Positions 2,595-8,083 of a stretch of 61,346 nucleotides of DNA are shown here, one piece after another. Each line of letters begins with the position of its first letter. The stretch's first letter is position 1. Source of the stretch: Lactiplantibacillus pingfangensis (GTDB taxonomy: Bacteria > Bacillota > Bacilli > Lactobacillales > Lactobacillaceae); NCBI RefSeq assembly GCF_005404945.1, contig NZ_BJDG01000020.1, positions 1-61,346 on the forward strand, written 5' to 3'. The notes below the pieces were generated by a model that worked only from the letters and a program-made list of their open reading frames with translations, did not search any database and was not told the DNA's origin. The translations under genes were made by a program, and so were the position numbers.

Positions 2595-2799
2595 AGATTG
2601 ATAGAAAGCGATTAACTGACTATCGATCATTAATATTCTTTAGTTTTTAGATTGTAACCGGTGTTGCTGCCATAATACCGATTACTAATCACTTTCATTC
2701 ATAGACTCCCCCAAGTCTTATGAATGGGGTTCATCAAAGCCCCCACTTTGATGTTTCCTACTCCTTGACCACTGCATCCATGATGTGGTGGCTTTTTTT
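2595..2799 (+). ncRNA. Candidate small regulatory RNA A (C-rich loops)
   Basis: A predicted transcript of about 205 nt between a strong promoter and a terminator. Two hairpins both display the same loop, CCCCCA: one at 2696-2726 (arms CATTCATA-GACT / AGTC-T-TATGAATG) and one at 2732-2753 (arms CATCAAAG / CTTTGATG). A pyrimidine stretch containing CTACTCCTT, complementary to a Shine-Dalgarno AAGGAG, follows, then the terminator at 2769-2799. It resembles the four units at 5520-7049. The seen part is promoter, hairpins and terminator; regulation of mRNAs by loop pairing is an inference from csRNA, LhrC and Rsa-type RNAs. Confidence 0.65.
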
Positions 2800-2801
2800 G
2801 T

Positions 2802-2930
2802 GCAGAGTGTGAGGTCAACCGGGTGAGAGTGAGCATTGCCTAGCACAGTCAATGACTCGGTGCTTTCCCGAGTGCTTGACTGTGCGTAGCAAGCGGAACT
2901 CTCAGGTTGGCTGAACACGTTTCGACTATC
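2802..2930. repeat. Structured repeat, full unit 1
   Basis: Begins three bases after the sRNA A terminator with CAGAGTG. An outer 5' arm (GTGT...CAACC-GGG-TGAGAGT) can pair with an outer 3' arm ending in GAACAC, and an inner hairpin CACAGTCAA...ACTCGG / CCGAGT...TTGACTGTG sits between conserved strips GAGCATTGCCTAG and GCGTAGCAAGCGGA. The unit ends in the conserved CACGTTTCGACTAT. Arms differ from the other units but still pair. Confidence 0.7.
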
Positions 2931-2947
2931 AAAATACCCCCCAAAAA

Positions 2948-3028
2948 CAATTACTCGGCGGTCTTTCCGAGTGGTTGGATGGTGTAGCAAGCGGAGGAAG
3001 CTGCCCGAGCAAGCACGTTTCGACTATA
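2948..3028. repeat. Structured repeat, half unit 1b
   Basis: Directly follows unit 1 and lacks the outer 5' arm. It keeps the inner ACTCGG / CCGAGT hairpin, the TAGCAAGCGGA strip, a private 3' arm (AAGCTGCCCGAGCAAG) and the CACGTTTCGACTATA end. Both unit 1 and unit 1b are trailed by a run of C followed by AAAAACAA. Confidence 0.65.
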
Positions 3029-3119
3029 AAAATATCCCCCAAAAACAAATTAAATCCGACTGGTGCTTGATCTACCAAAAACGGTAAATCCAACACCACC
3101 CGGACCTAATAACAGCTTA

Positions 3120-5297: not shown

Positions 5298-5481
5298 TTT
5301 AAGTCACACTTTCCTGTTGTTTTGCCAGCAATTATAGCATGTCGCAAGGGACAATCCAGTCAAAAGGCCGCCAATACAACGTTTAGGAGTTATCATAACG
5401 AAATAATTCCGGTCACTTGGTTATAAACTTTGTAAAAACAGTTAATTGTTCAAGTCAAAGTCATGGGATTAGTACGGTCAC

Positions 5482-5513
5482 ATCACAAATTCTTCACTAA
5501 CCGCCGTTATACT
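5482..5513 (+). promoter_or_regulatory. Direct-repeat activated promoter of sRNA B
   Basis: ATCACA at 5482-5487, five bases, TTCACT at 5493-5498, nine bases, then TATACT at 5508-5513. There is no -35 hexamer; the direct repeat occupies its place. The same geometry occurs before sRNA C and sRNA D, as expected for an OmpR/PhoB-family response regulator. Confidence 0.6.
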
Positions 5514-5519
5514 ATGTTC

Positions 5520-5659
5520 ATAGTCATTAAGGAATTCCCCGTTTCTTAATAACCACTAACTTAAAATTCAATTACCTCCCCCGAAAGTAATGAATTGATG
5601 TGTAGACAACCTAATTTCTTCCCTTTTTCCACCGTATTCCCCGATACGGTGGTTTTTTT
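5520..5659 (+). ncRNA. Candidate small regulatory RNA B
   Basis: About 140 nt from the predicted start to the end of the terminator. Hairpin 1 at 5526-5550 has arms ATTAAGGAA / TTTCTTAAT and loop TTCCCCG. Hairpin 2 at 5565-5596 has arms AATTCA-TTAC / GTAA-TGAATT (one bulged A) and an open loop CTCCCCCGAAA. The terminator at 5629-5659 has arms CCACCGTAT / ATACGGTGG, loop TCCCCG and seven T. Thus every loop carries a run of C able to pair with Shine-Dalgarno sequences. Nearest relative in the window is sRNA C. Confidence 0.7.
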
Positions 5660-5663
5660 ATTG

Positions 5664-5790
5664 TAGAGTGAAAGAATCAACGGGTTGCTGATGAGCATTG
5701 CCTAGCCATCCAATTACTCGGTGCTTCCCCGAGTGGTTGGATGGCGTCCCAAGCGGAATCAGCAGTTGATTTTTTCACGTTTCGACTATA
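5664..5790. repeat. Structured repeat, full unit 2a
   Basis: Follows the sRNA B terminator. The outer arm GTGAAAGAATCAAC-GGGT-TGCTGAT pairs with ATCAGCAGTTGATTTTTTCAC's end region, and the inner stem CCATCCAA / TTGGATGG encloses ACTCGG / CCGAGT. Conserved strips GAGCATTGCCTAG, CCAAGCGGA and CACGTTTCGACTATA are present. Confidence 0.7.
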
Positions 5791-5802
5791 AATCTAAGTA
5801 AT

Positions 5803-5883
5803 CAATTATTCGGTGAATTTCCGAATGGTTGTTCTAGCGTCCCAAGCGGAGTCCCCAGCTTTGCCGAACACGTTTCGACTATA
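5803..5883. repeat. Structured repeat, half unit 2b
   Basis: Lacks the outer 5' arm. Inner hairpin uses ATTCGG / CCGAAT instead of ACTCGG / CCGAGT, a compensated change. Its 3' arm (CCCCAGCTTTGCCGAACAC) matches that of unit 3a, about 870 bases away, rather than its neighbours. Confidence 0.65.
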
Positions 5884-5896
5884 TTAGTAAAAGCGT

Positions 5897-5976
5897 CAAT
5901 TACTCGGTGTTTTTCCGAGTGGTTGGATAGCGTCCCAAGCGGAATCAGCAGTTGATTTTTTCACGTTTCGACTATA
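5897..5976. repeat. Structured repeat, half unit 2c
   Basis: Lacks the outer 5' arm. Inner hairpin ACTCGG / CCGAGT. Its 3' arm (ATCAGCAGTTGATTTTTT then CAC) is identical to that of unit 2a, so the single 5' arm of 2a could pair with either. Confidence 0.65.
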
Positions 5977-6055
5977 AAACTAATCCCAAAGCCACCAAAC
6001 CCGTTCACAAAACCGATTTTCTTTCAAGCAAGGATCATAGTTTCAGCTTTCCGGT

Positions 6056-6087
6056 ATCACACTTTCTTCACGACTCCCCGCTATACT
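6056..6087 (+). promoter_or_regulatory. Direct-repeat activated promoter of sRNA C
   Basis: ATCACA at 6056-6061, five bases, TTCACG at 6067-6072, nine bases, TATACT at 6082-6087. Spacing is identical to the promoters of sRNA B and sRNA D. Confidence 0.6.
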
Positions 6088-6093
6088 GTGTTC

Positions 6094-6234
6094 ATAGTCA
6101 TTAAGGAACTCCCCATTCCTTAGTGATCACTAACTTAATTCAATTACCACTCCAAGTAATGAATTCAGGCAAAACAACCTAACTTAATTTACTTCCCTTT
6201 TTGCCACCGTATTTCCCCGATACGATGGTTTTTT
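6094..6234 (+). ncRNA. Candidate small regulatory RNA C
   Basis: About 141 nt. Hairpin 1 at 6099-6125 pairs CATTAAGGAA with TTCCTTAGTG and exposes CTCCCCA. Hairpin 2 at 6137-6165 has the same arms as in sRNA B and a loop CACTCCAA. The terminator at 6204-6234 (CCACCGTAT / ATACGATGG, one mismatch) has loop TTCCCCG and six T. The stem of hairpin 1 differs from sRNA B by changes that keep pairing. Unlike B and D, no structured repeat follows its terminator. Confidence 0.7.
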
Positions 6235-6435
6235 ATTGCCCTGCTTCTAATTAATTTGCGCGACCCTAATTAGGCATCAGCAATTTGATCATTTTATCGT
6301 TATGAGAAGCTGTGTCTGACATCAGTATGACAACGAAAATTAGCCCATCTAATCCCCGTATTAAGCGGCTATCGCAACAATGATTAGTCCCTTAACAAAG
6401 GCTTAGTGAATTCTTCACGACATTGAACGGATTCG

Positions 6436-6467
6436 GTCACATATTCTTCACACGGTCTGGTTATGAT
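6436..6467 (+). promoter_or_regulatory. Direct-repeat activated promoter of sRNA D
   Basis: GTCACA at 6436-6441, five bases, TTCACA at 6447-6452, nine bases, TATGAT at 6462-6467. The best-matched direct repeat of the three. Confidence 0.6.
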
Positions 6468-6473
6468 AGCATC

Positions 6474-6626
6474 ATAGCAATTGAGGAACACCTCAACGAG
6501 CTATAAAACAACCTAAAATTTTTCATTTACTCCTCCAAAGTAATGAAATTCATAGTGACATGTGACTCCCCATCACATGTCTCCCTACTCCTTTTTCCAC
6601 CGTATTCCCCGATACGGTGGTTTTTT
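6474..6626 (+). ncRNA. Candidate small regulatory RNA D
   Basis: About 153 nt with four hairpins: 6481-6496 (TTGAGG / CCTCAA), 6521-6548 (TTTCAT-TAC / GTA-ATGAAA, loop TCCTCCAAA), 6557-6581 (GACATGTGA / TCACATGTC, loop CTCCCCA) and the terminator 6597-6626 (arms CCACCGTAT / ATACGGTGG, loop TCCCCG). A single-stranded CTACTCCTTTTT precedes the terminator and is complementary to AAAAAGGAGTAG. It therefore offers at least three anti-Shine-Dalgarno surfaces. Confidence 0.7.
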
Positions 6627-6630
6627 ATTG

Positions 6631-6759
6631 CAGAGTGTTCGACAAAGCGGGTTGGGGACGAGCATTGCCTAGCTAGGACAATTATTCGGTGGGTTTCCGA
6701 ATAGTTGTCTTAGCGTAGCAAGCGGAGGCCCCAGCTTTGTTGAACACGTTTCGACTATA
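6631..6759. repeat. Structured repeat, full unit 3a
   Basis: Follows the sRNA D terminator. Outer arms GTGTTC-ACAAAGC-GGGG and CCCC-GCTTTGT-GAACAC pair, with the conserved GGGTT strip bulged on the 5' side. Inner arms CTAGGACAA / TTGTCTTAG enclose ATTCGG / CCGAAT. Ends with CACGTTTCGACTATA. Confidence 0.7.
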
Positions 6760-6770
6760 AAACTAAGTAA

Positions 6771-6815
6771 TCAATTATTCGCCGACTTCCCGAATGGTTG
6801 TCCTAGCGTCTCAAA
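6771..6815. repeat. Structured repeat, truncated half unit 3b
   Basis: Only the inner hairpin (ATTCG..CGAAT) and CTAGCGTC remain; the CAAGCGGA strip, 3' arm and CACGTTTCGACTATA end are lost. The linker before it (AAACTAAGTAATCAATTATT) matches that before unit 2b, indicating block duplication. Confidence 0.6.
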
Positions 6816-6876
6816 CTCAGTCAACCGCATCTCATCACCAACAACGCACACTCAACAAACAAAATAGTCACGATGC

Positions 6877-6905
6877 TTACCTTTTAACTGTCAAACGGGT
6901 ATACT
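6877..6905 (+). promoter_or_regulatory. Promoter of sRNA E
   Basis: TTACCT at 6877-6882, 17 bases, TATACT at 6900-6905. The TCACA direct repeat seen before sRNAs B, C and D is absent, so this copy is probably regulated differently. Confidence 0.5.
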
Positions 6906-6911
6906 AATAAT

Positions 6912-7049
6912 ATGGTGATTGAACTTGTCACTCGATCGCCATATCTTTTTCATTTACTCCTCCAAAGTTAATGAAAAAAGTCTCGCTGGGCACTCAAACC
7001 TAACGAAACGAACTACTCCTTTTGCCGTCGCGTAAAGCGATGGTTTTTT
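6912..7049 (+). ncRNA. Candidate small regulatory RNA E
   Basis: About 138 nt. A 5' hairpin at 6910-6944 (ATATGGTGAT / ATCGCCATAT) with a 15-base loop has no counterpart in the other copies. The hairpin at 6946-6978 (TTTTTCATT..AC / GT..AATGAAAAA, loop TCCTCCAAA) is nearly identical to that of sRNA D. CTACTCCTTTT precedes a terminator at 7025-7049 (CCGTCGC / GCGATGG, six T). No repeat follows; the next gene starts at 7148. Confidence 0.6.
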
Positions 7050-7147
7050 ATTTTCTATCTGCAATACGCTGATTATTTTCAGAAAAGTTGCAATCATAAA
7101 TCAACAGGTAGTATCATAGCCAAGTAAGAACTTAAGGAGTTGATTAG

Positions 7148-8083
7148 ATGAAAAAACGGAGTTGGGTCGCCGCTTTAGGGACCCCCATCGCCTTATTTTC
7201 AGCAACATTAATCGCGAGCGAAAAGCTTTATAGCTTTGCTTTCAAACGGGTTGATTATGTCCCAGAAACTTCTGCGGACAAACAAAAATACGCTGATGCT
7301 TATTGGTCATATGTGAAGTGGCTTCATCAGCAGCCCATTCAAACCTGGCAACTCGACAGTGATACTGACAGTCACTTAGTTGCCAAATACGTGCCGGCTT
7401 CAAATACGAGTCGCCGAACAGTGATCGTCTCGCACGGCTATAAAGGTGACGGCGAAACGATGGCCAACTATGCTTATATGTTTCATAACATGGGCTATAA
7501 CGTGCTCTTACCAGATGACCGCGGTCACGGTCAAAGTACCGGCAAATATATTAGCTTTGGCTGGCAAGATCGTCGTGACTATTTAGGTTGGGTCAATCAA
7601 GTCATCGAAGCAACCGGACCTCAGGCAGAAATTGTGCTCTTTGGCGTCAGCATGGGCGGTGCGACGGTTGAAATGATGAGTGGTGAAGCGTTGCCCCCTC
7701 AAGTCAAAGCAATTATTGCCGACTGTGGCTATACAAGCGTTGAAGAAGAACTCGCCTACTTACTCAAACGCCAATTTCACTTACCTAAGTATCCATTTGT
7801 CCCAATCGTCAGCTTTATCAACCGACACCGCATGGGGTACTTTTTGAGCGATGTGAGTTCAGTTGAACAACTTCGCCATAACAAGTTACCAATTTTCTTC
7901 ATTCACGGTGAAAAAGATGTCTACGTCCCAAGTTGGATGCTGAAAAAGAATTATCAGGCCGCTGCTGGTCCCAAGTCGATGTGGCAAGTTCCCAACGCGA
8001 CTCATGCCGAAAGCTTCTGGATTGGCCCGGCCGAATATGAAAAACATGTCGCCGCATTTCTAAAACGTTACTTAACTGATTAA
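7148..8083 (+). CDS. Membrane-anchored alpha/beta hydrolase
   Basis: A 311-residue serine hydrolase with one N-terminal hydrophobic segment (residues 7-24) that could anchor it facing the outside. The catalytic triad is readable: Ser168 in GVSMGG, Asp257 in HGEKDVYVP and His286 in ATHAES. The oxyanion region is SHGYKGDG and the DDRGHGQS block is typical of this family, often annotated as cell-surface hydrolases in lactobacilli. Substrate unknown; esters or peptides are possible. AAGGAG precedes the ATG, and a strong terminator follows. Confidence 0.85.
   Translation: MKKRSWVAALGTPIALFSATLIASEKLYSFAFKRVDYVPETSADKQKYADAYWSYVKWLHQQPIQTWQLDSDTDSHLVAKYVPASNTSRRTVIVSHGYKGDGETMANYAYMFHNMGYNVLLPDDRGHGQSTGKYISFGWQDRRDYLGWVNQVIEATGPQAEIVLFGVSMGGATVEMMSGEALPPQVKAIIADCGYTSVEEELAYLLKRQFHLPKYPFVPIVSFINRHRMGYFLSDVSSVEQLRHNKLPIFFIHGEKDVYVPSWMLKKNYQAAAGPKSMWQVPNATHAESFWIGPAEYEKHVAAFLKRYLTD

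Follow-up and report, generated by a model that had tools for sequence, protein, structure and literature searches.

A multicopy family of putative small RNAs with C-rich loops and a direct-repeat promoter box in Lactiplantibacillus and other Lactobacillaceae

The window analysed here is the whole of contig NZ_BJDG01000020.1 (contig C20; 61,346 nucleotides, to which all coordinates refer unless another contig or locus is named) of the 2.9 Mb genome of Lactiplantibacillus pingfangensis. It carries five units, U1 to U5, with the make-up of small RNA (sRNA) genes: U2 to U5 form a tandem array at 5520-7049 and U1 stands separately (Table 1). Together with two dispersed copies on other contigs, these units seem to represent a new and apparently uncatalogued sRNA family that is widespread in lactobacilli. 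Knowledge of sRNA control in lactobacilli is, as far as we are aware, sparse, and we found no description of these RNAs in the accessible text of the open-licence literature. In the portion available to us, a study of vesicle-borne small RNAs from L. plantarum WCFS1 follows one RNA, which acts on human cells (PMC9436029).

Structure, conservation and extent of the family

Each unit folds more stably than all 200 of its own dinucleotide shuffles, with z scores of -6.0 (U1), -3.95 (U2), -5.1 (U3), -7.96 (U4, folded over 6474-6623) and -5.6 (U5), and each ends in a terminator hairpin; a terminator scan flags the ends of U1, U2, U4 and U5, and that of U3 is visible in the fold only. An earlier note on this DNA, made from the letters and their reading frames, had described five such units, A to E, which coincide in position with U1 to U5, and the loop sequences it gave are those we find. 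Two details have to be amended: the CU-rich tail of U1, given as CTACTCCTTTT, actually reads CTACTCCTTGA, and the terminator loops of U2, U3 and U4, which had gone unlisted, are C-rich as well (UUCCCCG). The claim that the units hold no open reading frame agrees with the result for U4, the unit tested, where no frame of at least 12 amino acids is common to all 15 orthologs (that at locus L058 has none at all).

The 15 rows in question, U4 and 14 Lactiplantibacillus orthologs (one from a metagenome-assembled genome), were aligned and folded as alignment A1, the rows being chosen by their 5' end and not by hairpin 2. The stems had been said to vary between copies while still pairing, and the ortholog alignments agree, since stems covary while the C-rich loops are kept. 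In hairpin 3 of U4, six of the nine pairs have changes in both strands of the stem, with pairing preserved in 99% of the cells, and the loop stays CUCCCCA or UUCCCCG. Covariation as high as that of the U4 orthologs was seen in 0 of 500 shuffles for four of five measures and in 1 of 500 for the fifth, with slid controls far lower. Among the U5 orthologs (alignment A3), double changes occur in 5 of the 10 pairs of the first hairpin, and three of the five measures stand at 0 of 500 shuffles. The copies of U2/U3 type (alignment A2) are poorly aligned in the middle and only their first hairpin and terminator were used; here the terminator stem changes by compensated pairs, and the CCCC loop is retained in 20 of 21 rows, the exception, L002, having UUCCUUG. 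Hairpin 2 behaves differently from these stems: it is identical at all 15 U4 loci, and an independent look at U5 found it exact at 13 of 15 loci, with three changes in L007 and no counterpart found in L064. As the U5 rows of A3 were chosen with the hairpin 2 pattern, its invariance within that alignment is by construction.

A covariance model, R1, was built from A1 alone. In its own genome it returns seven matches at an E value of 1 or better, namely U4, U2 (8.7e-11), U3 (3.9e-7), U5 (1.2e-6), U1 (1e-5, the weakest value) and one copy each on contigs C7 and C10, so that the genome holds at least seven copies rather than the five counted previously. The C7 and C10 copies had been detected by the promoter pattern alone, before R1 existed. 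All 21 genomes of the genus contain 4-11 matches, a few genes being matched twice. Run over the Lactobacillaceae, as had been proposed for a model of these RNAs, the search gave matches family-wide (at E 0.01 in 102 of 251 genomes, which belong to 19 of 40 genera); in a class-wide sample only 6 of 250 genomes matched, these being the genome studied here, one further member of the family and four from other families of the order. The design that had been named for the units (multiple copies, own promoter, C- or CU-rich loops and linker, terminator, covarying stems) thus holds for orthologs in other species and genera. Nothing in the window reaches an Rfam gathering threshold, and across nine further loci the only such match is a tRNA. 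At locus L010 (L. fabifermentans) four copies of U2/U3 type lie in tandem at 5713-7299, an arrangement pointing to growth in copy number.

Table 1. Features of the sRNA loci (coordinates in the window, except for the two dispersed copies)
Feature	Position	Strand	Evidence
U1 sRNA gene, a divergent copy that has additional hairpins; two CCCCCA loops, linker CTACTCCTTGA, terminator	2595..2799	+	fold; R1 match 2651-2797
U2 promoter, (A)TCACA-N5-TTCACT, 9 nt, -10 TATACT at 5508-5513	5483..5513	+	box matrix
U2 sRNA gene; loops UUCCCCG and CUCCCCCGAAA, terminator loop UUCCCCG	5520..5659	+	fold; R1; alignment A2
U3 promoter, (A)TCACA-N5-TTCACG, 9 nt, -10 TATACT	6057..6087	+	box matrix
U3 sRNA gene; loops CUCCCCA and CACUCCAA, terminator loop UUCCCCG	6094..6234	+	fold; R1
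U4 promoter, (G)TCACA-N5-TTCACA, 9 nt, -10 TATGAT at 6462-6467	6437..6467	+	box matrix
U4 sRNA gene, best conserved of the cluster	6474..6626	+	fold; 15 aligned rows; covariation
U4 hairpin 2	6519..6548	+	U4 alignment
U4 hairpin 3, loop CUCCCCA or UUCCCCG	6557..6581	+	U4 alignment; covariation
U4 linker CUACUCCUUUUU and intrinsic terminator, loop UUCCCCG	6585..6626	+	terminator scan; alignment
U5 sRNA gene; hairpin 2 as in U4 at 6946-6977	6912..7049	+	fold; R1; 12 aligned rows
Alpha/beta hydrolase (Hydrolase_4)	7148..8083	+	neighbour gene
Dispersed copy, contig C7	~2736-2972	-	R1; promoter box
Dispersed copy, contig C10	~89431-89585	-	R1; promoter box

A direct-repeat promoter box

U2, U3, U4 and the C7 and C10 copies are each preceded by (N)TCACA-N5-TTCANN or a one-base variant of it, with the consensus TTCACA-N5-TTCACA, and the second half of the repeat ends nine bases before a -10 element (TATACT, TATGAT or similar). 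The promoters proposed in the earlier note need a correction: the conserved -10 of U4 is TATGAT, and the place 17 nt before it is occupied by the direct repeat and not by a TTGACA-like -35. U5 has a -10 (TATACT, 6900-6905). A generic promoter scan of the window gave no excess over shuffles (10 versus 10.1). With a matrix made from 42 training boxes, which score 19-46, the three sRNA promoters of the window reach 34-45 (the training set includes them) and the next best of 122,630 positions 7.7.

The box and the RNAs go together far beyond this locus. The exact pattern TCACANNTTCTTCA-N11-TANNNT occurs 62 times in the 21 genomes of the genus, loci that are not independent because many are the same locus in related species, and in 61 of the 62 an R1 match lies within 110 nt downstream (0.01 expected by chance); for boxes with one mismatch the figure is 36 of 56. 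Since nearly every exact box precedes such a match, the regulon looks almost sRNA-only, as is the case for the csRNAs controlled by CiaR in Streptococcus. In other genera, all 19 copies read have a best box score of 12.7-32.6 within 120 nt upstream, and a similar pattern with one mismatch is found across the family in 138 of 251 genomes, from 26 of 40 genera, against 30 of 251 for the reversed pattern (counted by eye). Thirty box loci from other genera were read, including some from genera (g4, g9, g28 and g40) that have no R1 match in the family search; a script counts a C-rich hairpin loop downstream in 23, and the remaining seven show C-rich or CUCC stretches by eye, one of them (L276) without a clear terminator. 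A separate case was seen in two close relatives, where the box promoter at L213 (~1860-2010) and the matching place in L214 precedes a short hairpin RNA that lacks C-rich loops, possibly a decayed or re-purposed copy.

Complementarity to translation starts and competing explanations

Read as their reverse complement, the opening 18 nt of hairpin 2, in U4 (6519-6536) as in U5, give exactly GGAGGAGTAAATGAAAAA (GGAGGAG-UAA-AUG-AAA-AA), so that the complemented stretch covers a whole translation start: Shine-Dalgarno sequence, spacer, AUG and AAA-AA. This complementarity gives a reason for the conservation of hairpin 2. Outside the genus, CAU and the CU-rich stretch are mostly kept, at a varying distance from each other. 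Counted in the first 94 of the 106 rows of alignment A4, 75 of 91 distinct units contain the motif TTCAT-N1-7-(CTCC, CCCC or TCCC), where shuffles give 3.3 on average, an excess that does not translate into a probability because the units are related; among the units of other genera 23 of 26 have it. Its form TTCAT-N1-7-(C/U)CC occurs in all 19 copies read from other genera, and some U2/U3 copies have CAA, the complement of a UUG start. Near-exact sites were found in two genes, for a 386-amino-acid protein on contig C28 and a 55-amino-acid protein on C3, and predicted pairing peaks around the Shine-Dalgarno region of the 47 genes of the window.

The most probable explanation, in which we place considerable though not full confidence, is that these are multicopy, activator-controlled, trans-acting sRNAs that block translation at ribosome sites. 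Under it, U1 to U5 and the C7 and C10 copies would be RNAs of ~130-240 nt, most of them switched on by an activator, probably a response regulator of the OmpR/PhoB type, that would bind TTCACA-N5-TTCACA in place of a -35. The transcripts would present several C-rich or CUCC loops, and many would have a hairpin in which 5' arm and loop together complement the whole translation start; pairing there would stop ribosomes from initiating on many mRNAs, with an effect that is probably additive between copies.

Several features are shared with known sRNAs of Gram-positive bacteria, and the differences are as clear; what follows on these systems is taken from the available portions of the papers cited. 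(i) The csRNAs of Streptococcus (CiaRH regulon) are likewise multicopy, end in a terminator, have a direct repeat with N5 spacing and are complementary to both the Shine-Dalgarno sequence and the start codon (PMC3091779). They are driven by strong promoters of an OmpR-type regulator (PMC3091779), a class that is only presumptive here. However, the CiaR repeat before their -10 is TTTAAG-N5-TTTAAG (PMC3091779), whereas our consensus is TTCACA; up to five hairpins with C-rich loops occur in our units; the start-site complement, unpaired in csRNAs, lies here in the arm and loop of hairpin 2 and so partly in a stem; and a CiaH homolog is reported to be absent from Lactobacillus (PMC3091779). (ii) Listeria LhrC1-5 (RF00616) is a set of five copies, with three redundant UCCC or CU-rich sites in a loop, a single strand and the terminator loop (PMC4132741, PMC5880928). 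Several such sites, the terminator loop among them, are found in U2 to U4, while the terminator loops of U1 and U5 are not C-rich. In LhrC, stem A is reported to open and its 5' side and loop to bind mRNA (PMC4132741, PMC5880928), as hairpin 2 may do. LhrC is regulated by LisR, with induction under envelope stress, and its control element lies in another place than the box of our units (PMC4132741). (iii) Ref84, the Enterococcus sRNA 84 (RF02846), on which the open-licence literature yielded no paper, has a similar UACUCCUU-UUCCACCGG-like linker and terminator, but its base pairs in the alignment do not take in hairpins 2 and 3. The best reading is that the units work like csRNAs and LhrC yet, by the features tested, do not belong to any of the three (promoter hexamer in the first case, Rfam score in the others). 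The csRNA/LhrC design proposed in the earlier note is strengthened by the N5 direct-repeat promoter, which recalls CiaR csRNAs, and by the several UCCC-type sites, which recall LhrC.

Common descent, with the units as divergent true homologs of LhrC/Ref84-type sRNAs from other Bacilli and all of them one old family, strikes us as rather unlikely, although it is the best placed of the alternatives. U4 does give sub-threshold Rfam matches to Ref84 (29.9 bits) and LhrC (25.8 bits), and the four weak R1 matches from the order's other families appear to share the design, having a CUCCCCC or CUCCUCC hairpin and a ACUCCUUUU linker and, in one instance, a box-like repeat. But the gathering scores are not reached (110 bits for LhrC; 52 for Ref84, to which U2 scores 25.7), the alignment to Ref84 owes most to the C-rich linker and terminator, which could converge, and the LisR-responsive element of lhrC5 lies at about -55 to -75 and not directly before the -10 (PMC4132741, in the text available).

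The explanation by translation-blocking sRNAs has a number of observations against it. A genome-wide count of exact complements to the hairpin arm shows no enrichment: there are 6, as many as for the reversed pattern, and three of the 6 are the sRNA genes themselves; a reversed-sequence control pairs about equally strongly at the Shine-Dalgarno regions of the 47 window genes, so that the pairing peak reflects composition and does not single out particular genes. In U4 and U5, hairpin 2 varies too little to show covariation, and for U5 two of the five measures give little or no signal, their values being reached by 22 and 458 of 500 shuffles. The box precedes only 97 of 135 R1 matches (E below 5e-4, five weaker ones left out; some genes, as in G018 and G019, are doubly matched, and matches of the C10 type overlap the box by ~20 nt), and neither U1 nor U5 has a strong TTCACA box. 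The activator also proved elusive: no OmpR-type regulator gene, the one class searched for, lies beside the sRNAs in 188 sequences, the three OmpR-type matches of that search all being ~8 kb from the hydrolase gene at loci where no such RNA was seen. A response regulator and kinase pair (L102, 2890-3664; genome G000, contig C27), suggested by an exact box 40 bp before it, was rejected: this upstream box is not conserved in the upstream regions of 19 genus orthologs (its own included), and G005 and G020 keep the sRNA boxes although they have no close ortholog of the candidate (best ~59% identity). The box before that operon may be chance or a recent gain. Among 21 OmpR-type regulator genes in two genomes none is preceded by a strong box, the best score being 11.6, from the rejected candidate, and the next 3.2. 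The genome studied here has nine regulators of this type.

PhoP, which looked likely at first because of the hexamer, is disfavoured as the regulator. The sRNA-box matrix scores at most -4.3 in 11 pst upstream regions of the same genomes, far from the training range; TTTACA-N5-TTTACA is present in six of these 11 regions, and the sRNA boxes do not match this Pho box. The N5 spacing shared with the pst promoters counts in favour of activator-driven sRNAs; as the hexamer differs, the class of the activator is something we infer.

Could the C-rich loops be there for a protein or for some other RNA, as a sponge or decoy, and not for ribosome sites? Such a role would suit the conservation of hairpin 2 as a whole, the absence of any target specificity in our searches and a second repeat with GCGGAGG stretches behind three of the units. 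Even so, we regard it as improbable, slightly more so than common descent: the conserved arm complements Shine-Dalgarno sequence, AUG and AAA codons together, the spacer between CAT and the CU-rich part differs in length from genus to genus with both parts retained, the motif recurs in most units outside the genus, and UCCC sites bind mRNA in LhrC (PMC4132741, available text). That the units are repeated structured DNA (REP elements or orphan terminators) with no regulatory role, as tandem layout and adjacent REP-like repeats might suggest, is very hard to reconcile with the co-occurrence of box and RNA at dispersed loci and across genera, or with structure being kept while loops stay fixed.

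Returning to translation-blocking sRNAs, a wider and much more tentative proposal is that the Lactobacillaceae possess a dedicated, almost sRNA-only regulon, in which one signal-dependent activator, acting at the TTCACA-N5-TTCACA site, would drive several RNAs per genome, many with an anti-Shine-Dalgarno, anti-AUG and anti-AAA-AA element, as a global brake on the secretome. The full anti-translation-start element would put its chief pressure on genes starting with Met-Lys-Lys, a usual start of exported and envelope proteins; if true, exported proteins would be damped together, an idea open to test. Lactobacilli are major food and gut bacteria, and an sRNA family that can be recognised and has a promoter code of its own offers a ready handle on them, through the R1 model, the widely distributed box and a regulator to find. 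The findings also suggest that activator-driven anti-Shine-Dalgarno sRNAs are a general Gram-positive device, with lactobacilli now joining Streptococcus and Listeria.

Neighbouring genes and adjacent repeats

The units lie among genes for a GNAT acetyltransferase, lrgA/lrgB, degV and the alpha/beta hydrolase. The motif CTCCTCCAAAG is found within 6 kb upstream of this same hydrolase gene at 14 of 14 Lactiplantibacillus loci and at 0 of 56 loci of other genera. In Levilactobacillus, 24 of 27 loci have 2-5 predicted C-rich-loop hairpins within 420 nt downstream of it; in Lactiplantibacillus the RNAs are upstream. Four or five such hairpins in a row follow the gene in the Levilactobacillus loci L016, L022, L035, L036 and L038. 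Across 52 of the 56 other-genus loci (L014, L015 and L056 were too short and L059 was left out), at least two C-rich loops were counted on the sense strand in 28, any on the antisense strand in one and at least two within the last 420 nt of the gene in none, the totals being 100, 1 and 6 loops. Membership of these downstream hairpins in the same regulon is less sure because box scores there are mostly weak (best in Levilactobacillus 10.9).

A second repeat family (GAGCATTGCCTAGC ... inverted stem ... GTAGCAAGCGGAGG ... CACGTTTCGACTAT) occupies 2816-3030, 5670-5978 and 6635-6810, directly behind the terminators of U1, U2 and U4, and within the window its two end motifs are confined to these places even when two mismatches are allowed. 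Two possibilities are a REP-like element that was copied along with the units and an RNA whose GGAGG stretches could soak up the sRNAs. Elements resembling this repeat follow copies in L010 as well.

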